Source: Dickeya aquatica (lineage in GTDB: Bacteria; Pseudomonadota; Gammaproteobacteria; Enterobacterales; Enterobacteriaceae). Taken from it: a stretch of 64,000 bases of DNA. Every line of letters starts with the position of its first letter. Within the stretch, counting starts at the first letter, position 1. A program made the translations under genes and the position numbers. The stretch lies in contig NZ_LT615367.1 in NCBI RefSeq assembly GCF_900095885.1, positions 1,922,001 to 1,986,000 of the forward strand, in the 5' to 3' direction. The notes beneath the pieces are model-generated. The model ran no database searches. It was not told where the DNA came from and worked only from the letters and a program-made list of their open reading frames with translations. Positions 16,053 through 31,217 of the stretch are shown here, piece by piece.

Positions 16053-16322
16053 TTAGCCTTTCTTTGCCCAATTAATGGCAAATTCCGGTGCCTGCGTCAT
16101 TCCATCGAGAAACCATTGATACGAATGGCTCTTGATAAACTGATACAGAGAATGATCGAGCCAATAGACAGCATCAGCCAATGACTCCAGCGACGACAAA
16201 ACTGAAATCCGGTTGAAACCATTGTCGCTTCCGCTCTCTCTCACATCAGCAGGCTGAGATAAAAAACTCTGTGCAACATCATCGGCGGCCTGTAGCCATA
16301 TTTCCGCATTGTGATTTGGCAT
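16053..16322 (-). CDS. early phage protein with NHNAEIWLQAA N-terminus
   Basis: An 89-residue protein starting MPNHNAEIWLQAADD at 16322, preceded by AGAGG. Its N-terminus is shared with the upstream neighbour (16438-16779), and a stretch of about 55 bases (16170-16225) is almost repeated there in another frame. It is a partial duplicate of that gene. Function unknown. Confidence 0.65.
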   Translation of the reverse strand: MPNHNAEIWLQAADDVAQSFLSQPADVRESGSDNGFNRISVLSSLESLADAVYWLDHSLYQFIKSHSYQWFLDGMTQAPEFAINWAKKG

Positions 16323-16437
16323 AAAACCTCTAAACATTCCCCATTAGTAACCGCCTGCTGTCAGGCGCTTGCGAATGAAGCCGGGATGTTTCGACACGCC
16401 CGGCGCGTGTTTTCCCTGATGTTAAGCGCACCCAAAG

Positions 16438-16779
16438 TTATGAATTTTTATTGCCGGTTCTTATGGCCGCTTGATGCAGTGCATAGGTCAGCGCCTCGGC
16501 CAGGATGCGTAATTCAATTTCTGGTAAGCGGTTATGCCAGTATGTTCTGGCTCGGACGATATCCATCTGGGCATTGATCTGAGCGTTAACGTTGTTGTAT
16601 AGCTCTTCCAGTAATTCGGATTCCCGTTTTTTTTCTTGATGACTTAACGGAGTTAGCTTTTTAGACAGCATCAGCCAATGACTCCAGCGACGATAAAACG
16701 CTAACCCGGTTGTAACCATTGTTGCAGTCGCCCTCTTGGCGGCCTGTAGCCATATTTCCGCATTGTGATTTATTTTCAT
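16438..16779 (-). CDS. early phage protein, frameshifted duplicate of neighbour
   Basis: A 113-residue protein starting MKINHNAEIWLQAAKR. Residues 4-14 match the next gene (16053-16322). Downstream, the nucleotides at 16669-16726 match 16170-16225 of that gene but are read in a different frame, giving MVTTGLAFYRRWSHWLM instead of NGFNRISVLSSLESLAD. The C-terminal half is unrelated and helical. One copy has therefore shifted frame. Function unknown. Confidence 0.6.
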   Translation of the reverse strand: MKINHNAEIWLQAAKRATATMVTTGLAFYRRWSHWLMLSKKLTPLSHQEKKRESELLEELYNNVNAQINAQMDIVRARTYWHNRLPEIELRILAEALTYALHQAAIRTGNKNS

Positions 16780-17419: not shown

Positions 17420-17431
17420 AATGGTATGTTG

Positions 17432-17469
17432 TGATCCACTATCATTCTGTGAAAATCATTATGGGATCA
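17432..17469. promoter_or_regulatory. candidate repressor operator between early and lysogenic genes
   Basis: TGATCC at 17432 and GGATCA at 17464 form an inverted pair separated by 26 bases in the intergenic switch region between the leftward early operon and the rightward repressor. P2-family repressors bind spaced repeats of this kind. The assignment is inference. Confidence 0.45.
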
Positions 17470-17496
17470 ATAGATCTCTTTTGTCAAGGTGTGAAA

Positions 17497-17892
17497 GTGA
17501 CCTTTAGATCTCAATGTGCCGAAAGATTGAAGTCCGAGCGGAAGCGATTGTCCTTAAATCAGGCTGATGTCGCTGAGTTGTGCGGGGTATCAAGAGAAAC
17601 ATGGGGCAAATACGAGAGAGGCTCCATGGTGCCAGGAGGAGATGTTTTGTTCTCTTTTGCTATGGCAGGAGCAAATATTCAATTTGTCCTAACTGGTGAA
17701 GAGTCTGGCGGCTTTGCTCTCTCTCGAGATGAAATTGAATTGGTCAAAAGCTTTAGAGTGGCCCCTTTAGCAGTAAAAGCCGCTGCACTGGGCGCATTGA
17801 CTGCGGGTAGTTCTGCAACAGCAGGATCAATAAACATAACCGGTAGCGGCCAGCGTGTTGCTGGCAGGGACTATCACGAAAACAAAAAATAA
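17497..17892 (+). CDS. C: phage repressor (XRE family) with C-terminal AGRD motif
   Basis: A 131-residue protein if translated from the GTG at 17497, which has AAGG at good spacing; an in-frame ATG at 17461 lacks a clear ribosome binding site and overlaps the operator. Residues about 7-37 form a helix-turn-helix (RKRLSLNQADVAELCGVSRETWGKYERG). It is divergent from the early operon as expected for the lysogeny repressor. The C-terminus ends ITGSGQRVAGRDYHENKK, a motif nearly repeated at the start of the next protein. Confidence 0.85.
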   Translation: MTFRSQCAERLKSERKRLSLNQADVAELCGVSRETWGKYERGSMVPGGDVLFSFAMAGANIQFVLTGEESGGFALSRDEIELVKSFRVAPLAVKAAALGALTAGSSATAGSINITGSGQRVAGRDYHENKK

Positions 17893-17911
17893 ATAAGGGA
17901 ACGCTCCAGGA

Positions 17912-18523
17912 ATGAGTGTTGAGTCTCATGGAAATGAAAACCGGCTGGCCGGGCGGGATTTTTACGAAAGCAGTATCACGGTCGATAAGATCAATATCGC
18001 TATTCCGGCGGCCAATGAAGAAAAACGCCCACTGGTTCCCGCGCAGCGTAAGCAGTTAAACCAACTGGTAAAAGAAATTGCTGACGGCGGCTATGAAGAG
18101 GGTTTTTCAGTGTGGCAGCGCGTCCATGCTGAAATTGGCGTCAAAAGCATTGACGATATGACGGTCAACCAGTATCAAACGGCGGTCAGTTATCTTCAGG
18201 CATTGCGCGACAGATACCGGGAAAAGGATGCCAGTAATGCGCTGGTTCATCTGCTATTGAAGAATACCCAGCAGGTAGATCAGCGGCAGCAATTAATTCA
18301 TTACTGCCATATTCATTTCGGTACTGGACGATTAACTGAGCTGACCCGATCGCAGCTCCAGCAGGCGCTTTCATGGTTGGATGATCGTCAGTGTTCGACC
18401 GTTCCTGAACAAACTGCGCCTAACGCTCGCCAGAGCTGGCAGGAGGTGCTTAAAGCAGAACCATTGGTTTTCAGTGCTGTGTTTGTTGCTGGAATAATTC
18501 TTGGCGCTATTTTTTTTCGTTAG
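17912..18523 (+). CDS. membrane-anchored protein with N-terminal AGRD motif
   Basis: A 203-residue protein 19 bases downstream of the repressor. It starts SVESHGNENRLAGRDFYES, matching the repressor C-terminus (GxxxR[VL]AGRD[YF]xE). The centre (about residues 40-165) is helical, with a pattern like VWQRVHAEIGVKSIDDMTVNQ. The C-terminus is a single transmembrane helix (PLVFSAVFVAGIILGAIFF). The predicted topology is cytoplasmic with a tail anchor. Function unknown; the shared motif suggests physical coupling to the repressor. Confidence 0.7.
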   Translation: MSVESHGNENRLAGRDFYESSITVDKINIAIPAANEEKRPLVPAQRKQLNQLVKEIADGGYEEGFSVWQRVHAEIGVKSIDDMTVNQYQTAVSYLQALRDRYREKDASNALVHLLLKNTQQVDQRQQLIHYCHIHFGTGRLTELTRSQLQQALSWLDDRQCSTVPEQTAPNARQSWQEVLKAEPLVFSAVFVAGIILGAIFFR

Positions 18524-18602: not shown

Positions 18603-19781
18603 ATGACATTTGAAGAATGGATTTCAAAAAACGAGAAAGAAATATTCTTTACTTATATTAATGCTAATAATGAGGCATCTAACAATCACGTTGCCGATGC
18701 AGTATATAAAGATAATTATCTTCAAGGGTATTGCATCAACAAGAAAGGTTTTAGAACCTTCAAGCTTGAAAGAATACTGGATGTCTACTCTTCAAATGAA
18801 GAAATGGTTTCTGCCGCTGGTCCTTTAACTATCGCAGGTCTCAAGATTGAAAATCGGCGTGCGAAAGATACTCCCCGTGGTTTGGAGATTTGTTTTACTG
18901 GTTTTGATAAAGACATAAAGGATGAACTAGAATCACTCGCTGAAAAAAAAGGATTATTAGTCAGAAAAGGTATTACAGCAAAATTATATTTCCTATGTTG
19001 TGGCCCTAATGCCGGATGGAAGAAAATAAAACAGGCAAATGAAAAAAACTGTTTCATCCTTTCCAAAGATCAATTTTTTTCATTTGTTGACACAGGCGAG
19101 ATCCCAATAGAATCGACAGAGGTTTATGAATCTGACGAAAAAGATATAAATGAAAAAATAGAAAATTTGCACAATGAAGTAACTTCAACATTTCGAACTA
19201 TCAGAGAACCGCGCAGGAGTACCGCGCTTATTGCTCGTTTTGTTGATGGTTATGCTATTGGTTGGCGCTTTGCAATAAGAGAATCTCACCGTAATGCACT
19301 AGATATAAAATTAACTAAATTTGTTTTTAATAAGCATCAATATGAGGATTGGACGCAAGGTAGCTCTTTTTCTTTCGGTAGAGGTGATGTCTTTTATAGT
19401 GATAAATTGGGTTATAGTGAGTGGAGTGAGTTTTTAAAAATACCTGACGCGGTTGTACTACAAGTCAAATATGAGTGTTTTTCTGGTTATGATCCAGTTG
19501 CAACTATTGATGGTTTTTTCTCAGGGGACTTCATTCCAGATAACCAGCTAACGCCTAAAAAACTAACCAATCTACCAATTATGATAAGAAGTGAAAGTTA
19601 TGACCCTGGGAAAATAACACTGGATATATTTAAGCCTAGTCTTGATAGAAGTAACCTTGACTTGTTTGATACGATAAAAATAACTCAGGACGAACTTATC
19701 TCATTACTTCAGTCAGGCTACTACTGGAAGAAGGATGAAGGACAAAAACCAGTGCGTATAAATTTATTTGGTGATAATTAG
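18603..19781 (+). CDS. BRCT-domain protein with WYL-like N-terminus (prophage cargo)
   Basis: A 392-residue, AT-rich gene. The N-terminus (about residues 38-65: GYCINKKGFRTFKLERI) resembles a WYL-type ligand-sensing fold. Residues about 92-168 look like a BRCT domain (GLEICFTGF, then a helix, TAKLYFLCCGPNAGWKKIKQA, FILSKDQFFSFV). The 200-residue C-terminal domain is unrecognised. It lies in the lysogenically expressed interval between repressor and integrase, followed by a second BRCT gene, and is not needed for phage growth in P2. A defence or exclusion role is inference. Confidence 0.6.
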   Translation: MTFEEWISKNEKEIFFTYINANNEASNNHVADAVYKDNYLQGYCINKKGFRTFKLERILDVYSSNEEMVSAAGPLTIAGLKIENRRAKDTPRGLEICFTGFDKDIKDELESLAEKKGLLVRKGITAKLYFLCCGPNAGWKKIKQANEKNCFILSKDQFFSFVDTGEIPIESTEVYESDEKDINEKIENLHNEVTSTFRTIREPRRSTALIARFVDGYAIGWRFAIRESHRNALDIKLTKFVFNKHQYEDWTQGSSFSFGRGDVFYSDKLGYSEWSEFLKIPDAVVLQVKYECFSGYDPVATIDGFFSGDFIPDNQLTPKKLTNLPIMIRSESYDPGKITLDIFKPSLDRSNLDLFDTIKITQDELISLLQSGYYWKKDEGQKPVRINLFGDN

Positions 19782-19879
19782 AAATATTTGTCAATATTGT
19801 TTTTAGTAAATGATTTCCCGGTTGGAAATGTAGTTATAAGTTGACTTTGAAATTATAATTAATACCAAAGGAAAACCTC

Positions 19880-20764
19880 ATGGCAGATGAAAAACTAGAT
19901 GTTTTTAACTATAAAAGGAATAAAGATAAATTACTTATTAACCTTATCAATATCATTGAGGGCATAAACTGTGATGGTCATATAGATGAGAAAGAAGTTT
20001 TGTTTCTTGATACATGGATAAAAGATGCTGATTTAATCAGCAAAAACTATTGTGTGCGGATGATTTCAAATAGACTTTCCGATATATTGTCTGATGGCGT
20101 TATTGAGCCGTATGAATTGAATTATTTGAAAGCTGATTTGATCAAGGTGCAAAAAGAGCTGTCTGATTTACCTGAGCTTGATTTGTACTCCGATGAAGCG
20201 GACAAGCATTTATTGGAAGGCCTATGTAAAGGAATGATGGCTAATCATGAACTTAATGATTCAGAAATAAGATACTTAAATTGGTGGCTATCATCTAATG
20301 CTGCTCTCAAAGTTAATTACCCTGGAAAAGAGTTATACGCATTGGTTAACCGGATTCTTGCGGATGGGATCATTACATCAGAAGAACGTGATGAATTGAA
20401 AAAAGCGTTAATCGCTTTTACCGGAAGTGATGTTGATTCCGGTGTAGTGGATGGGCTGGCAACTCGCTTACCGGTGGATGATATAGAGAGCTTAGTTCTT
20501 TCCAATGCAACAGTTTGTCTGACAGGTGAATTCCTTTATGGAAAAAGATCAGTGTGTAAAAAACTGATTGAGGATGCAGGCGGGAAGGTGATTGATAATA
20601 TAACATCAAAACTTGATTTTCTTATTATTGGTACATTGAGTTGTAAACATTGGAGATATCAGGCTCACGGTCGGAAAATAGAAAAAGCAATAGACTACCG
20701 GGATAATCGTGGCATTCCACTGAAAATAATCAGTGAAGAACAGTGGCAGAGCTTTACTGGATAA
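19880..20764 (+). CDS. TerB-like protein with C-terminal BRCT domain (prophage cargo)
   Basis: A 294-residue acidic protein. Two helical repeats (about residues 15-100 and 105-195) carry Asp/Glu-rich turns (NCDGHIDEKEVLFLDTWI; LADGIITSEERDEL), like the TerB/DjlA-type metal-binding fold. Residues about 207-294 form a BRCT domain (ATVCLTGEFLYGKRSVCKKL, GGKVIDNITSKLDFLIIG, EEQWQSFTG) as at the end of NAD-dependent DNA ligase. It follows the other BRCT gene on the same strand and ends six bases before the integrase. Confidence 0.7.
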   Translation: MADEKLDVFNYKRNKDKLLINLINIIEGINCDGHIDEKEVLFLDTWIKDADLISKNYCVRMISNRLSDILSDGVIEPYELNYLKADLIKVQKELSDLPELDLYSDEADKHLLEGLCKGMMANHELNDSEIRYLNWWLSSNAALKVNYPGKELYALVNRILADGIITSEERDELKKALIAFTGSDVDSGVVDGLATRLPVDDIESLVLSNATVCLTGEFLYGKRSVCKKLIEDAGGKVIDNITSKLDFLIIGTLSCKHWRYQAHGRKIEKAIDYRDNRGIPLKIISEEQWQSFTG

Positions 20765-20770
20765 TATTAC

Positions 20771-21778
20771 ATGGCTGTAAGCAAACTTCCATCCGGCAAA
20801 TGGCTTTGCCAATGCTTCCCCTATGGGCGCGATGGTCAGCGCGTTCGTAAACAATTTGCCACCAGAGGTGAGGCACTCGCGTATGAGCGCCGCCTGATGG
20901 CGGAGAAAAAAGGGATATCGACCGAAACCAACAGTACAACGCTGCAAGACCTGATCCAGCGCTGGTATGACATGCATGGCCAGACGCTGGAGTCAGGTGA
21001 AGACCGCTACGCTAAACTGATGGCGATCTGTGATCGGTTGGGTAATCCCTTTGCGGTAGACGTTGATAAAAATATGTTCGCTGTTTACCGCGAACGCCGG
21101 TTAAAAGGTGAATGGAACCCAAAAGGGAAGACGGCCATCAAAGAGGCCACAGTGAACCGCGAATACTCCTACCTGCGGGCAGTGTTCTCTGAGCTAAAGC
21201 GCATGGGGGAGTGGGAAAAAGAAAACCCGCTGGATGGCATACGCCAGTTTAAGGAAGGCGATCAGGAACTGGCTTTTTTGTACCCGGATGAAATTAAGCG
21301 CCTGCTTGCTGCCTGTGATGAATCAGAGAATAAAGATCTCGGTATCATCGTTCGCTTGTGCCTGGCTACAGGGGCGCGTTGGGGCGAGGCCCAGACCCTG
21401 AAACAATCGCAAATCCTTCCCGGCAGGATCACATTCGTTAAAACCAAAGGGAAGAAAAACCGAACCATTCCTATTTCTGAAAGAATGCACGCCTTGTTGC
21501 CCAAGCGGCGCGGCCAACTCTTCAAACCAGCGTATGAGGCATTTAAGCACGCCTTAAAGAAAGCGCACATTGAATTACCAGAAGGACAGTTGACCCACGT
21601 TCTCAGGCACAGCTTTGCCAGCCACTTCATGATGCGCGGCGGCAATATTCTGGTGTTGCAGCAGATATTGGGCCATAGCTCTATCACTATGACCATGCGG
21701 TATGCGCATTTCGCGCCGGATCATCTGGATGCGGCGGTAACTCTCAACCCGTTTGATTCTTTAACCACAGATGAATAA
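20771..21778 (+). CDS. int: P2-like tyrosine integrase
   Basis: A 335-residue protein (P2 Int 337). It starts MAVSKLPSGKWLCQ. The catalytic domain shows the first Arg (ATGARWGEA), a Lys region (KTKGKKNRTIP), HVLRHSFASHF (His-x-x-Arg), and the Tyr in TMTMRYAHF. It recombines attP with the 3' end of tRNA-Leu(UAA), whose fragment lies 128 bases downstream. Confidence 0.96.
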   Translation: MAVSKLPSGKWLCQCFPYGRDGQRVRKQFATRGEALAYERRLMAEKKGISTETNSTTLQDLIQRWYDMHGQTLESGEDRYAKLMAICDRLGNPFAVDVDKNMFAVYRERRLKGEWNPKGKTAIKEATVNREYSYLRAVFSELKRMGEWEKENPLDGIRQFKEGDQELAFLYPDEIKRLLAACDESENKDLGIIVRLCLATGARWGEAQTLKQSQILPGRITFVKTKGKKNRTIPISERMHALLPKRRGQLFKPAYEAFKHALKKAHIELPEGQLTHVLRHSFASHFMMRGGNILVLQQILGHSSITMTMRYAHFAPDHLDAAVTLNPFDSLTTDE

Positions 21779-21905: not shown

Positions 21906-21960
21906 TTTAAAATCCCTCGGCGTACGCGCTGTGCGGGTTCAAGTCCCGCTCTGGGCACCA
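21906..21960 (+). other. attachment site: 3' part of tRNA-Leu(UAA)
   Basis: The sequence runs from the anticodon loop (TTTAAAATCCC) through the variable arm and T-arm (GTGCGGGTTCAAGTCCCGC) to the CCA end, but the D-arm and 5' acceptor strand are absent; upstream DNA is phage. Integration into a tRNA 3' end leaves such a remnant at the distal junction, with the intact gene at the other end, outside the window. It is also the left boundary of prophage 2. Confidence 0.85.
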
Positions 21961-22003
21961 TGCAATAAATGATTGATAAAAATAGAAATAAATAAAAACT
22001 CTT

Positions 22004-22026
22004 CACCGCCTCAAGGCGGTTTTTTT
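22004..22026 (+). terminator. terminator downstream of the tRNA fragment
   Basis: ACCGCC, TCAA loop, GGCGGT then seven T: a textbook intrinsic terminator 45 bases after the CCA end, as expected behind a tRNA gene. Confidence 0.8.
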
Positions 22027-22096
22027 ATGCCTGTAATTTGGCTAGTGACAGCAAAATGGCGGCAGAGTGGCAGCACCCGTTTTTCAGGTACAAAAA

Positions 22097-22117
22097 GGCG
22101 GCCTTCAATCAGCCGCC
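22097..22117. repeat. palindrome between att fragment and ogr
   Basis: GGCGGC, nine-base loop, GCCGCC: a perfect inverted repeat in the interval between the tRNA fragment and ogr. It lacks a T-run, so it may be an att-flanking structure rather than a terminator. Confidence 0.4.
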
Positions 22118-22155
22118 ATTGTTAACCGTGGTTGAATAATCGATACCCAAACCGA

Positions 22156-22182
22156 AGCCCCGCACTCATCCTGCGGGGCTTT
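22156..22182 (-). terminator. terminator after ogr
   Basis: AGCCCCGC, loop, GCGGGGCT with TTTTGTTTT on the plus strand, immediately after the ogr stop. It can act in either direction. Confidence 0.65.
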
Positions 22183-22186
22183 TGTT

Positions 22187-22435
22187 TTACAACGCCAGAT
22201 TCAACTGATCCCGTCCGTAATGCGATGCCGGAAAGGCGTCTTGCGGGATAAAGTCAGGCGGTAGCGGGTCTTCCCGTGTGCGCTTTGATACGCGCCGTTC
22301 TACCGTGTTGAGGGTGGTAAATGTCTCGCTGCATTCCAGGTTCTGACACTGGTGGTACTGCCGGATGGTGATATCGCTCAGGCGGCGACTGGTACGGGTG
22401 CGGGCCGTAGCCCCGCAGAAAGGACATCTGAACAT
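22187..22435 (-). CDS. ogr: Ogr/Delta-type late gene activator
   Basis: An 82-residue protein starting MFRCPFCGATARTRTSRRL at 22435 (P2 Ogr has 72). The zinc ligands CPFC and CQNLECSETF match the Ogr/Delta family, which activates phage late promoters through RNA polymerase alpha. The family pattern RQYHQCQN is clear. It is the last gene of the P2 late block, downstream of D. In this defective prophage it could still act on late promoters of prophage 1. Confidence 0.93.
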   Translation of the reverse strand: MFRCPFCGATARTRTSRRLSDITIRQYHQCQNLECSETFTTLNTVERRVSKRTREDPLPPDFIPQDAFPASHYGRDQLNLAL

Positions 22436-22472
22436 AATGGTCTCCCCTGTGGGAGTTGAACTCGCCGCCATT

Positions 22473-23612
22473 TTATTCACTTTCTGCTATCCAGTCAGGG
22501 ATTTTTGCTTCCAGCTCCAGACGGGTGGTAAAGCCATTGCCATCAATAACGTGCTCCGCGCGGGCGATAATCCAGTCCTGATTGTCGATAGGGGGTTTAA
22601 AGCCGCTTACCGTCAGGTGCATTTCGGGATACAGCTCGGCACGTCCGCGCGCCAGGGTTATCGAAAATTCAGCCGCTCCACGTTGTAACTGCCGCCATTT
22701 AGCCGCCGCCGCCCGTTTGGCCGCCTCTTCATTGGGATAGGTTTTGCGCATCACAAATACATTACCGTCTGTGCCTGTGATGTAATCGCCTTCACGATTG
22801 CTGCTCTTCTCCTTTTTCGGTTTGGGTTTTGTCCGGCGGCGCTTCACGCTGACCTTTTTCTTCTTACCGAATTGCAGATCCATCCAGTAGGCGCGCACGC
22901 CGGTGTTGGCATCCCGATCGGCAATACGGAAACGGTGTTTATCACCGCTGTCTCGTGTGAGGCTGGCCGATGGCAGCGCCTTGCCGGATGCCGTCACACC
23001 ACCACCGGGCAGGATAAACAGCAGCGTGCCGTTTTTGATGGTGGCAATCGCCCCCAGTTGCCCGGCCATCCGGGTCAGGAATGACATATCGCTCTCTTCG
23101 GTCTGGTCGGCGTGGCCGATGTCGATATTCATCAGCATGTCACTGATTTGCGCCTTCATGCCGTAGCGGTGTGCAATCGCCGACACGACACGCTCTACCG
23201 TCACGTCATGCCATGAAACCTCTCGCTTCACGTTGAACTCTTCACGGAAATCCGCACTTCTGGCCGTCACGCCCAGCACGTCGGGCGGGCCTTCGTGGGA
23301 AATTTCATCCACGGTATACAGCCCTTTGTACGTCAGCGCTTCACCCTGCCAGCCAATGGACAGCGCAATCTGTGCGCCACGCGGCGGCAGCTCCAGGCGT
23401 CCGTCGCTGTCGTCTATCGACAGTGTGAGCTGGTCAGCCTCAAAGCCACGGTTGTCGGTCAGCGACAGCGAGATTAGCCGGTCGCCCAACTCCTTCAGCG
23501 CTTTCCCGCCCAGCGTAATGCTGAAGGCCGGAATTTTTACCGCCCCGGTCAGTGCGTCGTTGTAGCGCTTCGCGGCATCGGTAACGGAGTCAGTGAGTGT
23601 TTTGATATCCAT
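22473..23612 (-). CDS. D: P2 gpD-like tail/baseplate protein
   Basis: A 379-residue protein from MDIKTLTDSVTDAAKRY at 23612; the frame is open to 23636 and beyond. P2 gpD has 387 residues. Family segments FSITLGGKAL, DRLISLSLTDNRG, GLYTVDEISHEGPPD and the C-terminal DNQDWIIARAEHVI are present. A Lys/Arg-rich insert (KKKKVSVKRRRTKPKPKKEK) is near residue 265. gpD is a baseplate hub component. Just upstream, FI faces away from it, a junction not found in P2. Confidence 0.92.
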   Translation of the reverse strand: MDIKTLTDSVTDAAKRYNDALTGAVKIPAFSITLGGKALKELGDRLISLSLTDNRGFEADQLTLSIDDSDGRLELPPRGAQIALSIGWQGEALTYKGLYTVDEISHEGPPDVLGVTARSADFREEFNVKREVSWHDVTVERVVSAIAHRYGMKAQISDMLMNIDIGHADQTEESDMSFLTRMAGQLGAIATIKNGTLLFILPGGGVTASGKALPSASLTRDSGDKHRFRIADRDANTGVRAYWMDLQFGKKKKVSVKRRRTKPKPKKEKSSNREGDYITGTDGNVFVMRKTYPNEEAAKRAAAAKWRQLQRGAAEFSITLARGRAELYPEMHLTVSGFKPPIDNQDWIIARAEHVIDGNGFTTRLELEAKIPDWIAESE

Positions 23613-23765
23613 TTTCATCCCCTGTTTTTGCCGCATGATTTCACGCGTGCGCGTAGGGAAAAATGGCTTTTTGTTGTCGCCGGACGGCCAGACCCACCAG
23701 CGCGTGAGTGCGCGGCGGATATCGGGGATTATCGCCCTGAACTCAATAACGTAATGGTGGTGAAC

Positions 23766-24944
23766 ATGTCAGAGACACGTTTCCACGGTGCGCGTGTTCG
23801 TGAAAATACCGACCTGGTGGCCGCAATCAATGACATTGATTCCAGTGTGATTGGCGTGGTGGCCGTGGCGGAAGACGCGGATGCAGGCACCTTTCCCCTG
23901 AATACCCCGGTGCTCATCACACGGGTAAATAGCCTGCTGGGCAAGGCGGGTAAAACCGGCTCGCTCTACAAGACGCTGAAGGCAATTGCTGACCAGGCCA
24001 GCACGAAGGTGATTGTGGTACGGGTGGCGGCAGCAACCGAAGGCGGCGACAAAACCCAGTCTCAGCTGATTATCGGCGGGACGGCAGCTGACGGCAGTTA
24101 TACCGGCATGTATGCCTTGCTGACGGCAGAAGCAAAACTTAATTACCGGCCCCGGATTTTGGCAGTACCGGACTATGACACCGCCGAAGTGACGTCAGCG
24201 CTGTGCGTGATTGCGCAAAACCTGTGCGCGTTTGTCTATGCCGGGTGTCACGGTTGCACCACGATGGCCGAGGCCATCACCTACCGTGCGCAGTTTGCGT
24301 ATCGGGAGCTGATGCTGATCTGGCCGGATTTTATCGCCTATAACCCGCTGACCGGCAGCAATGAAACCTTTCCGGCAGCGGCCTATGCCTGCGGCCTGCG
24401 CGCAGCGATTGATAACGATCAGGGCTGGCATAAGTCGCTGTCGAACGTGGCCGTGAATAATGTATTAGGCATCTCGCGGGATGTGTTCTGGTCGCTTCAG
24501 GCCGAAGACAGCGACGCGAATGAACTCAACAATCAGGAGATCACCACGCTGATTAAGCGCAATGGGTTCCGCTTCTGGGGCAACCGTACCGCAGACACCC
24601 ATGATTACCTGTTTGAGGTGTACACCCGTACCGCACAAATCCTCGCTGACAGTATCGCAGAAGCGCAGTTTGAGGTTGTTGACGAGCCACTGACCCCGGC
24701 CAATGTCAAAGACGTGGTGAACGGCATCAACGGCAAGCTGAGTGCTCTGGTTACGTCGGGCAGGCTTATCGGCGGGGAATGCTGGTTCGATATTCAGGAC
24801 AACCCCACCACCGGCCTGCGACAGGGGCAAGTGCGCGTGCGTTACAAGTACACACCGGTGCCGCCGCTGGAAGACCTGACGTTATACCAGACGTTCACCG
24901 ATGATTATTTTGACTCCGCGTTCTCATCGCTGGGAGGGGTGTAA
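23766..24944 (+). CDS. FI: P2 FI-like tail sheath protein
   Basis: A 392-residue protein (P2 FI 396) starting MSETRFHGARVRENTDL at 23766; the upstream open frame is not phage-like. Motifs include GVVAVAEDAD, PVLITRVNSLLGKAGK and the C-terminal RVRYKYTPVPPLEDLTLYQ. It forms the contractile sheath. It reads rightward, opposite to D and ogr, although all are co-directional in P2, so the block has inverted. It directly abuts FII. Confidence 0.94.
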   Translation: MSETRFHGARVRENTDLVAAINDIDSSVIGVVAVAEDADAGTFPLNTPVLITRVNSLLGKAGKTGSLYKTLKAIADQASTKVIVVRVAAATEGGDKTQSQLIIGGTAADGSYTGMYALLTAEAKLNYRPRILAVPDYDTAEVTSALCVIAQNLCAFVYAGCHGCTTMAEAITYRAQFAYRELMLIWPDFIAYNPLTGSNETFPAAAYACGLRAAIDNDQGWHKSLSNVAVNNVLGISRDVFWSLQAEDSDANELNNQEITTLIKRNGFRFWGNRTADTHDYLFEVYTRTAQILADSIAEAQFEVVDEPLTPANVKDVVNGINGKLSALVTSGRLIGGECWFDIQDNPTTGLRQGQVRVRYKYTPVPPLEDLTLYQTFTDDYFDSAFSSLGGV

Positions 24945-25478
24945 ATGGCTGTACCGCATAAATTGCGCCTGTTCACCTGTTTTGTGAACGGCAACAACCA
25001 GATAGGCAAGGTTACAGCAGTGACCTTGCCAAAATTAACCCGCAAGACAGAGGATTTTCAGGGTGCGGGCATGATGGGCTCGGTGGCGGTCGATCTCGGT
25101 ATGGACTCCGGTGCGCTGGAAGCCCAGATGGTGGTGGGCGGCATGGAGAAAAAACTGTTGCAGGAATACGGCGGCGATATTGATGAAATTCGCCTGCGCT
25201 TTGCCGGGGAATACTACACCGACGGCGACAGCCAGCTGGTTGAAGTCGAGATGCGCGGCCGTATTACCGAGATTGATGGCGGCGAATCCAAGCAAGGTGA
25301 AGACACGTCAGTCACCTATGCGTTGAAAAATACCTACTACAAGCTGTCGATTGACGATCAATCGGTGCTTGAAATTGACCTGCTGAATTTCATCTACAAG
25401 AAAAACGGCAAAAACATCTACCCGGATCGCATCTCGTCGGCAGGCGTACCCGTTCTGGACGGGCGCACGCTGGAATGA
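24945..25478 (+). CDS. FII: P2 FII-like tail tube protein, altered C-terminus
   Basis: A 177-residue protein (P2 FII 172) starting MAVPHKLRLFTCFVNGNNQ, with TLPKLTRKTEDFQG and EIDGGESKQGEDT typical of the tail tube. It follows FI directly as in P2. The last dozen codons (after about YPDRISSAG) are read from terminase P sequence in another frame, because a deletion joins FII to the middle of P near 25440. The product is probably nearly full length with a foreign tail. Confidence 0.85.
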   Translation: MAVPHKLRLFTCFVNGNNQIGKVTAVTLPKLTRKTEDFQGAGMMGSVAVDLGMDSGALEAQMVVGGMEKKLLQEYGGDIDEIRLRFAGEYYTDGDSQLVEVEMRGRITEIDGGESKQGEDTSVTYALKNTYYKLSIDDQSVLEIDLLNFIYKKNGKNIYPDRISSAGVPVLDGRTLE

Positions 25479-26337
25479 GAAGCGCAGCAAGGCGAAAAAA
25501 GTTGAGTTTGATGTGTCCTGGAAAGCGCTCAATAGCGGTTTGCTATGCCCGGATAAAACCTGGCGTCAGATTGTGACGTTACAGGATGTTATCGATCACG
25601 GCTGGGAATACACCGACCTGGAGGAAATTCAGGATGAAAACAGCGGAGATGATTTTCTCAACCTGTATATGTGTGAGTTCGTCCGGGATGGCGAATCCGC
25701 GTTTAATCTTAACGCCCTGATCGGCTGCGGTACCGACGGTTACGACGAGTGGCCGGACTGGAAGCCGTTCGCATCACGCCCGATGGCCGATCGCGGTGTC
25801 TGGATTGGTTATGACGCCAACGGCAGCAGCGGTAACGGCGACAGCGGGGCCATCTCGGTGGTGGTACCCCCCCTGGTGGCAGGCGGCAAGTTCCGCACTA
25901 TCGAAACCCAGCAGATACGCGGCCTGGAGTTCGAAGAGCAGGCGAAGGTTATCGAGGCTCTGACCTTCAAATACAACGTGCAGCACATCGCTATCGATGG
26001 CACCGGTATCGGTGAAGCAGTCTACCAGATTGTGAAGAAATTCTTCCCGGCGGCAGTGTGCTTCCTGATGTCGGTGTCATCCAAACGCGCCTTAGTGCTG
26101 AAAATGCTTCAGGTCATTCGTGCCGGTCGCTGGGAGTACGACCACAGCGAACGCGCACTGATTAATGCGTTTAACGCCGTGCGGCGCGTCAAGACACCGG
26201 GTGGCATCATGACTTACGACACCGACCGCGCACGCGGCTCTAATCATGGCGATCTGGCCTGGGCAACCATGCTGGCCGTCATCAATGAACCACTTGGCCA
26301 GGAGCAGGGCGGTGGTGGCTTTGCGATGGAGTTCTGA
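25443..26337 (+). pseudogene. P: terminase large subunit P, C-terminal remnant
   Basis: From about 25443 the frame reads AYPFWTGARWNEKRSKAKK and continues through LLCPDKTWRQIVTLQDV and GIDGTGIGEAVYQIVKKFF, matching the C-terminal half of the P protein of prophage 1. The HTH and ATPase parts are missing. A GTG at 25513 opens a shorter frame of 274 codons. The 5' part was lost in the deletion that fused this region to FII. The stop overlaps the Q start (ATGA). Confidence 0.88.
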
Positions 26338-27389
26338 TGAAAAGAAAAAACAAATCCGGCACACATCAGGCGGCTAACGCCAGTCAGCCGGATATGGCCT
26401 CGGCCCTGAAAAGCGATCCGGGGCTGAGTGCGTTTACCTTTGACGGCCCCTATCCGGTCATGGACGGCCATGACCTGCTGGATAACATGTATTGCGCCGA
26501 CAATGGCCGTTATTACGATACCCCGGTGGACTGGTATGGGCTGGCTCGCGCATTTGGCAGCGCGTCATGGCACCAGTCGGCGCTGTACTTCAAACGCAAT
26601 GCGCTGACCGGGTGCTTTATCCCGCACCCGTTATTGTCGCGTCAGGCGTTCTCTGCCTTCGTGCTCGACTGGTTTGTTTTCGGCAACGGTTATCTTGAAC
26701 GACGGGTCAACCGATTGGGCGGCGTGCTTGCCCTGCGCCACGTTCCGGCCAAGTACACCCGGCGCGGCAGCGACCTGAATACCTATTGGTTTATCCGCCA
26801 GTGGAAAGATGAATACACGTTTGATACCGACAGCGTGTGCCACGTCATCAACCCGGATATTCATCAGGAGATCTACGGTATGCCGGAGTACATGGGCGCG
26901 CTGCTGTCGGCCAGCCTGTCACACTCCGCCGATATGTTCCGCAAACTCTACTATGACAACGGTTCGCACGCCGGGTGCATTATCTACATCGGTGCATCCC
27001 AGGTGGATAACGAGAGTATGGAGAGCGTGAAGAAAACGCTCAAGGAAGCACGCGGCAAAGGCGCGTTTAAAAACCTGCTGTTACATGCGCCGGGCGGCGG
27101 TGAAAAAGGGGTGCAGATTATTCCCTTCAGCCAGATATCCGCCAAGGACGAATTCCTGAATATCAAATCGGTGACGCGTGACGACATCCTCGCGGCGCAC
27201 CGTGTACCGCCGCAACTGATGGGGGCCATGCCGGAAGGCAACGGTTCTTTTGGCGATGTGGAGAAGGCCGCGCGGGTGTTCGCCATCAACGAATTAATGC
27301 CGGTAATGGAAGCGCTGAAGCATGTGAATGACTGGCTTGGTATGGAGGTGATCCGCTTCAACCCTTACGCCCTGCTGAAAGCCGAGTGA
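26337..27389 (+). CDS. Q: P2 gpQ-like portal protein (prophage 2)
   Basis: A 350-residue portal protein, collinear with and strongly similar to the prophage 1 copy at 7060-8115 (YCADNGRYYDTPVDWYG, FVLDWFVFGNGYLE, NGSHAGCIIY, AAHRVPPQLMG, VIRFNPYALL). The reading frame is complete, although its partner P is broken. Confidence 0.93.
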   Translation: MKRKNKSGTHQAANASQPDMASALKSDPGLSAFTFDGPYPVMDGHDLLDNMYCADNGRYYDTPVDWYGLARAFGSASWHQSALYFKRNALTGCFIPHPLLSRQAFSAFVLDWFVFGNGYLERRVNRLGGVLALRHVPAKYTRRGSDLNTYWFIRQWKDEYTFDTDSVCHVINPDIHQEIYGMPEYMGALLSASLSHSADMFRKLYYDNGSHAGCIIYIGASQVDNESMESVKKTLKEARGKGAFKNLLLHAPGGGEKGVQIIPFSQISAKDEFLNIKSVTRDDILAAHRVPPQLMGAMPEGNGSFGDVEKAARVFAINELMPVMEALKHVNDWLGMEVIRFNPYALLKAE

Positions 27390-27402
27390 TACCCCGCCGC
27401 TG

Positions 27403-27427
27403 CCGCCGTACTCACGCGGCGGTTTTT
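27403..27427 (+). terminator. terminator after Q (prophage 2)
   Basis: GCCGCCG, ACTC-containing loop, CGGCGG then TTTTTA, a few bases after the Q stop. Confidence 0.75.
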
Positions 27428-27805
27428 ATTCAAAAACTTTCACGTCACCCACGCGTAATCTCTTTTCAGATCAACGGCTAACGCCACCATTTCCCACCCA
27501 CATAAAACCGCATCAGCGCCACGCCATCGGGCGCTCACACCGGATGCCGCGCCGCGTCTCCCGAAGGGAAATACGCACGCAGCAGGCCGGGAAATAGGCC
27601 GGATTTGGCACATCGACGGGGAGCCCTGCCTACCCCCCATCGCGGGGGCTGTTCCCCCGTCACCTGCGCGCTGCTCTCGCTTCATTTTTTGTGCAAGTGC
27701 AGAAACCGGCCCGGCGCGCGTGCGTACCGGGCGGAAAGCGGAAAAATAGCATCAAAAAAGTTGTGCAAAATTGTGCGGGTTTGTGCGGCGCATTTGTGGC
27801 AAAAA
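27428..27805. other. gene-free interval after Q in prophage 2; expected cos region
   Basis: No supported gene. As in prophage 1, this interval should contain cos. It has GC-rich stretches around 27540-27660 and, at 27690-27800, several copies of TTGTGC (TTTTTGTGCAAG, GTTGTGCAAAATTGTGCGGG, GTTTGTGCGG). Similar repeats occur after Q in prophage 1. Confidence 0.4.
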
Positions 27806-27825
27806 AAACCTGCCGAAGCAGGTTT
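27806..27825 (-). terminator. terminator after the antitoxin gene (prophage 2)
   Basis: AAACCTGC, CGAA loop, GCAGGTTT. Read leftward it is followed by a run of T, just beyond the antitoxin stop. Confidence 0.75.
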
Positions 27826-27842
27826 CAGAGAAGGTTATAAAT

Positions 27843-28211
27843 TTACAAAATCATCTGTTCAGGACGACATCCATACAGTTCAGCCAGTTTTTGGCGGGTT
27901 TTCTTCTGTGGTCGAGAATCTTTCGCCTCCCACTGAGACACCGCTGATTGCGTCGTCCCCAGCCGTTCCGCGACATCGTACTGAGATAGTCCACGGTAAA
28001 CACGCCATGCGGCCAACAGGCTGATATCGTCACGAAACATAATGTTGACCACCTCATTTGGCACGGTTTCATCATCATGCTCGTCGGCGGCATAGGGAAT
28101 GGATTCATACCCGCTATCATCATTGGAGAGCAGGCTTTCGTACACATCTATCGGCAACACAACGAATTGCGGATTGCCGTTTACATCGTTGATATATTGT
28201 AGTTTTGACAT
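27843..28211 (-). CDS. XRE-family antitoxin (prophage 2 copy)
   Basis: A 122-residue protein differing from the prophage 1 antitoxin at only a couple of residues (Tyr for Phe at position 6, Gln for Glu near the C-terminus). Same layout: N-terminal Phd-like segment, C-terminal helix-turn-helix. Because the two copies are nearly identical, each antitoxin can probably neutralise either toxin. Confidence 0.88.
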   Translation of the reverse strand: MSKLQYINDVNGNPQFVVLPIDVYESLLSNDDSGYESIPYAADEHDDETVPNEVVNIMFRDDISLLAAWRVYRGLSQYDVAERLGTTQSAVSQWEAKDSRPQKKTRQKLAELYGCRPEQMIL

Positions 28212-28284
28212 ATTTTTATCCGGGTATCTATGAGTCGCGGCCTTCGTTATGTCATTGAGGAAACGGGCGGGTTTCCCCGCCTGA

Positions 28285-28545
28285 TTAGTAGGTTGTTGAC
28301 GTTCTGCGTTTAACCTCTTTGATTTCGCAGATCACCGGTTCGCCTTTGGTAATTTGGAAAATGATCCGATAGTCGCCAACCCTCAGCCTGAACGCACCTT
28401 CTTTCCCCTTCAATGGGACAATATCCAGCCTGACAGCAGGGAAATTTTCCAGCTCAGTCACCTTTTCACTTATGGCGGTCTGATACCGTTTGTCGATAGT
28501 CAGACGTTGTTTCAGTGCTTTCTTTGACCAGATCACCCTTACCAT
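28285..28545 (-). CDS. RelE/ParE-superfamily toxin (prophage 2 copy)
   Basis: An 86-residue protein that differs from the prophage 1 toxin at two positions (VPLKGKEG for VSLKGQEG). First gene of the operon, 73 bases upstream of the antitoxin. Both reading frames are intact even though the rest of the prophage is decayed, consistent with selection for keeping the pair. Confidence 0.9.
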   Translation of the reverse strand: MVRVIWSKKALKQRLTIDKRYQTAISEKVTELENFPAVRLDIVPLKGKEGAFRLRVGDYRIIFQITKGEPVICEIKEVKRRTSTTY

Positions 28546-28570
28546 CTGTTTCCTCAGTTTTTAAAGAGCA

Positions 28571-28585
28571 TATCCGCTAGGGATA
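28571..28585. promoter_or_regulatory. probable toxin-antitoxin operator (prophage 2)
   Basis: TATCC-GCTAG-GGATA, an inverted repeat 26 bases upstream of the toxin start, followed by the same AAGATAATAATAAGAC block as in prophage 1. Only the central spacer base differs. Confidence 0.6.
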
Positions 28586-28633
28586 AGATAATAATAAGAC
28601 ATTTAGACGAGAAAAACAACACTAACTTATTAT

Positions 28634-31171
28634 CTAATCTTTTCTCTGGCTCAACTCACGCAGCGCCGCTACTCGCTGCATCAAACCAGCCTTATCAACC
28701 TGCTGCTTCTCTGCTTCACGATACAGTTCCCCGTTTCTTCTGGCGTAATAACGATGTCCACAAAAATCAATCGGATGACCCGCTGCTAGCCTGCTTGCCT
28801 CTCCTATGCTGACATCCCAGCCGATTGAGCGGGCGAAATCGGCAATACTAGCGCGCCACTCGTCCGGCAGTTTTCCAACCGCCTGTTTTTCAGCCGATTT
28901 GTTCCGTTGAGTAGTGGACGAGTGTTGATTATTCCGCCGATCCGGCGGTTGAGTTCGCAACCTGGACAGCAGCGCCCGGCGTTCCGGGGCGGTCATGCGC
29001 TCAAAGTCGGTGAAGGTTTGAGCGGATGTATCGTCAATTTCTCCATCTGGCGGTTCACAGCTCCCATAGTCATCCCCGTCTATATCTGCCGGAATGGCTG
29101 TTTTTTCATCGCCCGTAGAGTTATTGACAGAACTCCAAGCGTCGCCGGTCGGCGACGTAACGGCTAAACCACTCCTGGTGCTAATGCTGGCACCATCGTC
29201 AATGGCCTGTTTTTTGCGGATTTTCCACTTGATTAACCGGGTGCAGATACGTGAGATAGCCCCCAGACGTGGGGAGAACACACCGAAGATTTTTTCCGGT
29301 GTCTCGCCGTAGGTGTTTTGTTCGTCAGCGTCTTCATAGGCAATGCGCACGGTGTAGCGCTCGCGTGGGATCAGCACGCCGCCTTGCTTTTCGATGTACG
29401 TGGCAAAACAACCGGCGTCAGCCGATGCCAATACAGCATCCATTGCCGGGTCAGCAAGCTGTGCGGCCCCGCGTTTGAACGTGCCGTTTTCTTTCTGGGC
29501 TGCGGTAAGTTGGTTTGCCAGGCGACGCAGTTCACGCCATACCGTGACTGGCGGCAGGCCGAACGGCTGAAACTGTCGGATGTTATGCTGTGACGCCCAG
29601 GCCATCGCAAACTTTGCCGTTTCACGTAACGGCTTACCGGTTTCGTTATCCAGCTCGCCATCCAGCGCGTAACCGTCGATATTTTTACTGATGTACTTCG
29701 CCACGTAAGCCGTCGCGCTGCCTTTTCTTGGATCGAGCTTTTTAGCCTTGAATCGTGCGCCGGTGTTGCGCCCCAGCTCCGCACGGTCTTCAGCAATAAA
29801 ATATTCACGCAAGATATCGGTGATGGCCTTTCTGTCGGCAGGTGGCATAAACAGCAACACATGCCAGTGCGGGGTAGCGTCGTGGTGCGGCTCGGCAACA
29901 CGGAAACCATAGGGACGCAGGCCTCGGCGATTTAGTTTTGACATCGCTTTAGCCCAGGTACGACATAAGTAGCGCTGCCCTTGGCGGGGAGAGGCATGAT
30001 CCCACTTAGGGTTTTGGTGACCGTTCTGGATGTTAGCGTGATAACGCGACGGGCAGGTGATAGTGAGGAAAACACCCTCATCACCCCGCGCGATTGCCAC
30101 CATTTCAACACCGGCCATGCGGGTCATCAGCTCATGACGGCGGATAGCCGGATTACTGATACTGCCGTACACCATGTTTTCCAGTGATGCGATGTTGCCA
30201 TCTTCATCAACCAGTTCATGTGTCTGGAAAAAAGCGCGATTCTTGCGGCGCTGCTCTTGCCACTGGTTGAGAGCATCAAGGCTGACATACGGCATTCGTT
30301 TTTTGTGGATCACACCGATGGCGCGAAACTGATTTTCCCGCCATTCACAACGCAGTCGCCACAACTTCCGCTCCCACCATTCAGGTGAGGTGATGCGCAA
30401 AATGGCGGAATAGATGCGGTGCCGGGCTTGTTCATCACCGATAACCAACCCCCAGCACGGCGGCGTCACACGTAATGCCAGCAGTTCGCGCCCAAGATGG
30501 CGATATAGCCACTGAATTTCATCGTAGGTCATATCTTCCGGCGATGTGTGGCCGCACTCGGTTTCAAACATTTCGACGATGGCGGCCGCAAGGGTATGCG
30601 CGGCATTGATCACCTCATGCTTGGTAAACCCGGCCAGATGTGACCAACGCGGCCCCCAATAGACCGCCAGTTCCGATGCAAAACCATCACGCACACCTTG
30701 CTGTGCGCGCACGGCATCCAAACGCAACAGCGCTTTTTTCACGGTTCCCATAAAAAAAGCGCTGATGTGTCGCGGCTCGCGGTTCGCTCGTAGCCATTCG
30801 ATTTTTTGGCGGTAAACGTCGCGGATAAAAGGCGGCTGCTCGTGTAAGCGTGCGGCCACGCCTTCCGGCGTTTTCATCCAGCCGCTAATCGTTTCCTGAT
30901 GGCCCTGACGCTCTATTTCCGCCAGACCACGACGGATACGCAACTGGGTGCCGTTCGGCTCCCGCTGTTCCAATTGCACCACGGCCTGACTAAGATTCCG
31001 GTCATCACCTGTGGCCAAAGCGCGTTTAACCATCCGGCTCAGATGCCGCGTGACGGCGGGATGCGGTTCCGCATCGGTAACGAATAGAGAGGGGCGGATA
31101 GCAGTCACGCCCGACGGTGCGGAGATCGCCGGGCGTGGAGCGTTCCAGTGATAGACCCACTGTTCAGGCAT
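28634..31171 (-). CDS. A: P2 gpA-like replication initiator (prophage 2)
   Basis: An 845-residue protein, highly similar to the prophage 1 gpA, with the same HUH residues (PHWHVLLFMPP) and catalytic Tyr pair (TAYVAKYISKNIDGY). It starts MPEQWVYHWNAPRPAIS at 31171; a GTG lies one codon upstream. The frame is intact. The last variable C-terminal part differs most. The two copies give long homology for recombination between the prophages. Confidence 0.93.
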   Translation of the reverse strand: MPEQWVYHWNAPRPAISAPSGVTAIRPSLFVTDAEPHPAVTRHLSRMVKRALATGDDRNLSQAVVQLEQREPNGTQLRIRRGLAEIERQGHQETISGWMKTPEGVAARLHEQPPFIRDVYRQKIEWLRANREPRHISAFFMGTVKKALLRLDAVRAQQGVRDGFASELAVYWGPRWSHLAGFTKHEVINAAHTLAAAIVEMFETECGHTSPEDMTYDEIQWLYRHLGRELLALRVTPPCWGLVIGDEQARHRIYSAILRITSPEWWERKLWRLRCEWRENQFRAIGVIHKKRMPYVSLDALNQWQEQRRKNRAFFQTHELVDEDGNIASLENMVYGSISNPAIRRHELMTRMAGVEMVAIARGDEGVFLTITCPSRYHANIQNGHQNPKWDHASPRQGQRYLCRTWAKAMSKLNRRGLRPYGFRVAEPHHDATPHWHVLLFMPPADRKAITDILREYFIAEDRAELGRNTGARFKAKKLDPRKGSATAYVAKYISKNIDGYALDGELDNETGKPLRETAKFAMAWASQHNIRQFQPFGLPPVTVWRELRRLANQLTAAQKENGTFKRGAAQLADPAMDAVLASADAGCFATYIEKQGGVLIPRERYTVRIAYEDADEQNTYGETPEKIFGVFSPRLGAISRICTRLIKWKIRKKQAIDDGASISTRSGLAVTSPTGDAWSSVNNSTGDEKTAIPADIDGDDYGSCEPPDGEIDDTSAQTFTDFERMTAPERRALLSRLRTQPPDRRNNQHSSTTQRNKSAEKQAVGKLPDEWRASIADFARSIGWDVSIGEASRLAAGHPIDFCGHRYYARRNGELYREAEKQQVDKAGLMQRVAALRELSQRKD

Positions 31172-31217
31172 CACTCACAAACCCCGGCGTAAACACTGCT
31201 GCAAACCGACTGGTCGT

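Follow-up and report, generated by a model that had tools for sequence, protein, structure and literature searches.

The window, that is, the whole 64,000-nucleotide stretch of Dickeya aquatica DNA that we analysed, carries a P2-like prophage whose lysogenic operon lies entirely on the + strand in the order repressor, ORF, gene A, gene B, integrase. The first gene (17431..17892, +) encodes a CI-type HTH repressor (HTH_31, E 6e-8; HTH_3, E 1.5e-6; phrog_8 transcriptional regulator, E 1.2e-10). Between the repressor and the cargo slot described below lies a conserved ORF of 203 aa (17912..18523, +; phrog_5825, E 2.1e-82), which is weakly Flk-like (NF007987 at E 6e-15, with a score far under the family cut-off) and has a C-terminus that appears hydrophobic by eye. 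Many relatives have an ORF of this type (cluster c1, 63 proteins) before the slot. The repressor C-terminus (VAGRDYHEN) and the N-terminus of this ORF (LAGRDFYES) have a short motif in common (window 17431-18523), and some relatives of the repressor match the ORF in BLAST, or vice versa. Gene A (18603..19781, +; 392 aa; phrog_36782, E 2.8e-76) and gene B (19880..20764, +; 294 aa; phrog_3989, E 2.6e-99) come next, separated on the same strand by an AT-rich gap of 98 bp (19782..19879; 25.5% G+C), and the operon ends with a tyrosine integrase (20771..21778, +; Int_N, E 3.3e-33; Phage_integrase, E 5.3e-25). Beyond it, the 3' end of a tRNA gene, recognised by eye in the sequence (21930..21959, +) and present as a single copy within the window, is the presumed attachment site; a whole tRNA gene was not found in the window. 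To the right of this site (21930-31174), another P2-like element follows in tandem and appears to be partial, with sheath, portal and replication genes and others that we take to be ogr-like and D-like. Direct repeats with a spacing of about 18.9-19.3 kb link the two elements. At 16053-16779, two small adjacent ORFs contain direct repeats (34 nt identical and 75 nt 85% identical).

The original prediction described A and B as AT-rich and co-directional with the lysogeny repressor, and both points hold: the G+C content is 35.1% in gene A and 36.5% in gene B, as against 51.5% in the integrase and 53.7% in the window as a whole, and all these genes share one strand and one operon order. A genome search found one copy each of gene B and of the C-terminal domain of A (CTD). 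Terminator-like sites on the + strand are located at 17463 and 22005 with none between them, which agrees with a single transcript, and we infer co-transcription from this arrangement. In the A-B gap neither a consensus promoter nor a + strand terminator was found. A promoter of their own for A or B was considered and rejected, as 4.9 kb held 7 promoter-like sites compared with 10.9 in shuffles, and none of them fell in the gaps preceding A or B. Comparison of the gaps flanking A and B with two related loci (L062 and L143) gave no convincing homology.

Gene A had been predicted to consist of a WYL-like N-terminus, a BRCT-like centre and an unrecognised C-terminal domain. The latter two parts stand, while the first is borderline: residues 13-68 (18639..18806, +) form a beta domain whose strands are seen in the predicted model and which matches the PADLOC WYL profile at E 7.3e-6, but scores 20.5 bits with Pfam WYL (PF13280), for which the curated cut-off is 21.8. 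Two relatives score above this cut-off (L175, 21.9; L154, 25.1). The BRCT domain (Pfam and predicted model) occupies residues 93-171 (18879..19115, +) and the CTD, an unnamed beta-rich domain recognised from a 36-member alignment and from stand-alone relatives, residues 196-388 (19188..19766, +). The first two domains have a counterpart in the WYL-BRCT phage proteins of phrog_2561 (labelled 'DNA ligase'), since residues 13-168 of A align with almost all of the 167-aa profile (E 3.2e-32). These proteins are also found near repressor-like genes (for example L158), but they lack the CTD that gene A has. In a survey of the order, 29/394 genomes matched gene A at E<=0.001. Only in G000 and G388 is it full-length, G001 matches through the CTD alone, and the rest consists of weak partial matches, ligase-length frames and WYL-BRCT parts. 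With one query allele, gene A was found in 3/5,426 E. coli genomes. In two E. coli prophages read end to end, it lies at the end opposite the integrase and adjoins hok/gef genes, and the annotation of these two prophages shows no BRCT gene next to the integrase. Three E. coli-type A sequences (L005, L006, L007) contain a frameshift that separates the WYL part from the BRCT-CTD part; E. coli genomes in which A is annotated as one full-length CDS also exist.

For gene B, the C-terminal BRCT domain (residues 204-291; 20489..20752, +; Pfam and predicted model) and the two helical repeats (residues 9-190; 19904..20449, +; helices in the predicted model) are both borne out, and the TerB-like identity assigned to the repeats is tentative. 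Gene B itself has no match to the TerB profile (PF05099), which gave matches at E<=0.1 in 5/41 cases (best 0.0017) and also matched 3/13 helical parts; against PDB, the helical part of B found nothing below E 0.14. The family is widespread. At E<=0.001, 237 protein clusters match gene B, and one B allele is present in 45 of 5,426 E. coli genomes. The order survey gave 20/394 genomes with a match, including four ligase-length frames matched at the BRCT end only and one genome (G050) with a BRCT match only. In another prophage type (L105-L136), the B relative runs up to a repressor-like gene of 228-231 aa in convergent orientation.

Pfam (PF00533, cut-off 21.3 bits) and confident predicted models agree on a BRCT domain in both proteins, as had been anticipated, with scores of 23.0 bits for A and 24.9 bits for B. 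The BRCT domains of RFC1 and NAD-dependent DNA ligase are their best or near-best PDB matches in both sequence and fold. In A and B, however, no AAA+ or ligase catalytic domain is present, and the BRCT is joined instead to WYL-like and CTD or to helical parts. In yeast Rfc1, the 5' phosphate is bound by T166, G167, R174 and K209 (PMC9359705). Gene B has this pocket as T215, G216, R223 and K266, with identical spacing from T to R, and the four positions are conserved at 132/133, 133/133, 132/133 and 133/133, respectively, in a set that combines B with 13 locus proteins and 119 of the homologues listed for it. In gene A the pocket is nearly matched, by T99, G100, K106 and K141, where K106 takes the position of the Rfc1 arginine after a loop one residue shorter; counting alignment rows with a residue at the position, T99, G100 and K141 are each found in 28/28 and a basic residue (K/R) at 106 in 27/28. 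Since these residues are conserved, it is likely, on sequence grounds, that the BRCT domains of A and B bind phosphate or DNA ends. The pocket fits a DNA-end sensor; a DNA-damage or invader sensor was first suggested for the pair. BRCT domains are also known to bind phosphopeptides.

The public-record label of NAD-dependent DNA ligase does not fit A or B, as Pfam finds no adenylation, OB or other ligase domain in either, and ligase profiles in PHROGs and NCBIfam are matched at their C-terminal parts only. The PADLOC candidate PDC-S48 matches the BRCT parts of both proteins (E 1.4e-5 in A, 8e-7 in B), but these matches are partial, in and around the BRCT (profile positions 325-406 for A and 274-384 for B, of 411), and do not extend over the whole profile; GapS2 (NF047932) weakly matches the BRCT region of B (E 0.0054), scoring 17 bits where the cut-off is 330. 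In comparisons with four close relatives (L001-L004), dN/dS is 0.13-0.15 for gene A, where the comparison with L001 is based on 6 differences only, and 0.05-0.11 for gene B. Because of this purifying selection (dN/dS 0.05-0.15 overall) and the full-length families, we reject the notion that A and B are decayed structural genes; by these sequence measures, both are maintained as proteins.

To place the two genes in context, the interval between repressor and integrase was surveyed in IMG/VR for the best 80 of 263 integrase relatives (at least 70% identity; counts redundant by strain). The layout is repressor-(ORF)-[cargo]-integrase, and the cargo includes B in 12/80, A in 5/80, a protein of the Abi_alpha cluster in 7/80 and a BRCT-first protein of 292 aa in 10/80 (L214:5126-6001 and nine other slot loci), the remainder of which is unnamed. 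One Abi_alpha slot protein (L185; E 1.2e-53) also matches PADLOC PDC-S47, and another slot (L182) holds an AAA_15 protein (E 4.8e-23) with PADLOC NsnB and AriA matches and a weakly PIN-like partner (E 0.013). Further single cases are a SEC-C protein (L241) and, in L175, a WYL protein whose N-terminus is hydrophobic. Elsewhere, A adjoins an OLD-like AAA_15+TOPRIM gene in the regulator/integrase interval of L255, and L256 looks alike; in G001 (L151), TerB-BRCT and CTD genes near an integrase share a stretch with a RelA/SpoT-like gene and a transposase. Many other slot occupants are small, functionally unassigned proteins that, by eye, seem to have a signal peptide. Seventeen slot loci have an integrase at least 84% identical to that of the window; of these, A and B are both present in 4 (all close relatives of the window), A without B in 1 (L173, the same contig as L143), B without A in 4, two of which also hold the Abi_alpha protein, and neither gene in 8. 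The occurrence of these four states indicates that the slot turns over and that A and B enter it separately. Thus, A and B are cargo of a cI-int-type slot and are exchanged between relatives, in keeping with the original view of them as accessory genes of the lysogen. A role as obligate cofactor of the integrase was ruled out, as the same integrase is accompanied by other cargo. Defence domains, recognised or candidate, occur in some other occupants of the slot, and the interchangeable slot genes are probably anti-virus genes.

Does the pair work together, as had been proposed? In the best 80 of 171 B loci, A is visible in 4, the same four A+B contigs, and 76 show no A in the fetched DNA, in which some contigs end close to B. 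Conversely, A occupies the slot without B in L143 and in Yersinia proxima (L137), where the order is repressor-A-integrase. Since A and B are found separately in related prophages, the survey of their co-occurrence does not support a pair that works together, and the two look like separate defence candidates rather than a fixed machine. A recurrent link is suggested at the domain level only, between the CTD and TerB-BRCT: genes bearing them are adjacent in four unlike settings, namely A then B in the lineage of the window, L262, L254/G001 and L268. In addition, a WYL-BRCT gene adjoins a TerB-BRCT gene in G265. A single two-component system, in which B senses and the CTD of A acts, or in which both proteins bind opposite sides of one end, would draw on these adjacencies; it is nevertheless quite unlikely in view of the many loci with one gene alone, and A has a BRCT of its own.

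The CTD matches no credible Pfam family, and its profile had a single match against PDB (E 1.4), which we take as chance; the whole-model Foldseek/VIA searches of PDB gave lists full of BRCT chains and so barely probed the CTD. Nine residues are identical in 36/36 members of the alignment (W221, L233, I235, W250, G253, F258, G336, Q362 and G372), others including R205, D234 and Q252 are conserved in 35/36, and no familiar catalytic set is found among the most conserved residues. A class survey with the CTD gave 4/369 matches. Ten of 17 CTD loci have a whole A beside an integrase without B, and an eleventh has a whole A at a contig end (L257). The order is B then A in L262, TerB-BRCT then CTD alone in L254, as also in genome G001, and CTD alone then TerB-BRCT in L268; one locus is cut by a contig end (L263) and two have no BRCT nearby (L267, L269). 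A SWIM-finger gene lies directly upstream of the CTD relative in L267 (103-974) and in genome locus L271 (6233-7164), and the two are fused in L270 (1017-1994). Pfam SWIM E values in these three are 1e-4 to 2e-3, with 1/3 under the cut-off, and none of the three loci contains an integrase match. Given the fusion to WYL-BRCT, the adjacency to TerB-BRCT and the fused or adjacent SWIM finger, the CTD recurs with DNA-binding partners. A possible but doubtful extension is that prophages could encode an undescribed defence family that has the CTD as its common active part and in which the DNA-sensing part is swapped: gene A has WYL-BRCT in cis, and other members would rely on TerB-BRCT from the neighbouring gene or on a SWIM zinc finger that is either fused or encoded alongside. 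Invading DNA ends would then be detected by BRCT/WYL modules, and in the window B may act as a second sensor for the CTD of A.

The kind of place in which A and B lie is known, since a repressor-integrase hotspot has already been published: Rousset et al. 2022 (PMC9122126) describe a cI-int hotspot in K139/PhiO18P-like P2-related phages of Vibrionaceae and, for this and a Bacillus hotspot, report RM, Septu, Helicase+DUF2290 and PARIS as contents. The slot in the window resembles it in being a cI/int slot of a P2-related prophage with high turnover and occupants with recognised defence domains, which adds to the plausibility of defence or exclusion; it differs in belonging to an enterobacterial P2-like prophage and in the phrog_5825 ORF that separates repressor from cargo. 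Other P2 hotspots are old/tin and fun (PMC9519451), and neither hotspot paper uses the term BRCT in its main text. In the record of Vibrio phage K139 itself, the order is promoter PL-cI-orf2-glo-int, with glo annotated 'involved in phage exclusion', a role recounted in PMC8537503. K139 orf2, of the phrog_3989 family, is a full-length B relative (34.8% identity over 97%) at the same operon position beside glo; K139 differs in having glo, and no A, in its cI-int operon. An open-access literature search, in the text it reached, found no paper on BRCT proteins as phage defence, and BRCT cargo in this role is not described in the literature so covered.

What A and B might do in the lysogen is best considered against what is directly supported, namely the slot and operon order, the cargo turnover, the predicted folds, the pocket conservation and the purifying selection. 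We give even chances to the reading that they are two independent accessory genes of the P2-like prophage, candidates for anti-phage or superinfection-exclusion genes that would sense phosphorylated DNA ends or junctions. Both would presumably be expressed with the repressor in the lysogen. The single RFC1/LigA-type BRCT of each protein would hold a DNA 5'-phosphate at an end, nick, gap or junction, with the WYL-like domain of A as a putative second nucleic-acid contact. The trigger may be the DNA ends that arise during DNA injection, replication or packaging by another phage; binding would engage the CTD in A or the helical TerB-like part in B, which would then block the incoming phage by superinfection exclusion or abortive infection.

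The same BRCT type with its intact pocket could instead serve the prophage itself, by binding its own DNA ends or nicks for circularisation, rolling-circle replication, integration or the lysogeny switch, and A and B adjoin both repressor and integrase, with several relatives annotated 'NAD-dependent DNA ligase'. This is rather unlikely, as close relatives lack A, B or both, the E. coli A lies at the other end of the prophage, and neither protein has a ligase catalytic domain in Pfam. TerB-like and WYL domains have been linked to stress responses, which, together with the purifying selection on both genes, would suit lysogenic-conversion (moron) genes that aid the host apart from phages, for example in survival of DNA damage or stress; we regard this as the least probable reading, and where slot occupants have recognised domains, these tend towards defence.

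The slot described here adds enterobacterial P2-like prophages to the published Vibrionaceae repressor-integrase hotspot. If the anti-phage reading is correct, the nameless CTD would acquire a testable role, as would the widespread K139 orf2 family, whose members currently carry the label 'DNA ligase' or 'BRCT domain-containing protein'. Prophage-encoded immunity would then make recurrent use of the BRCT fold, known chiefly from eukaryotic DNA repair, to detect foreign DNA ends.
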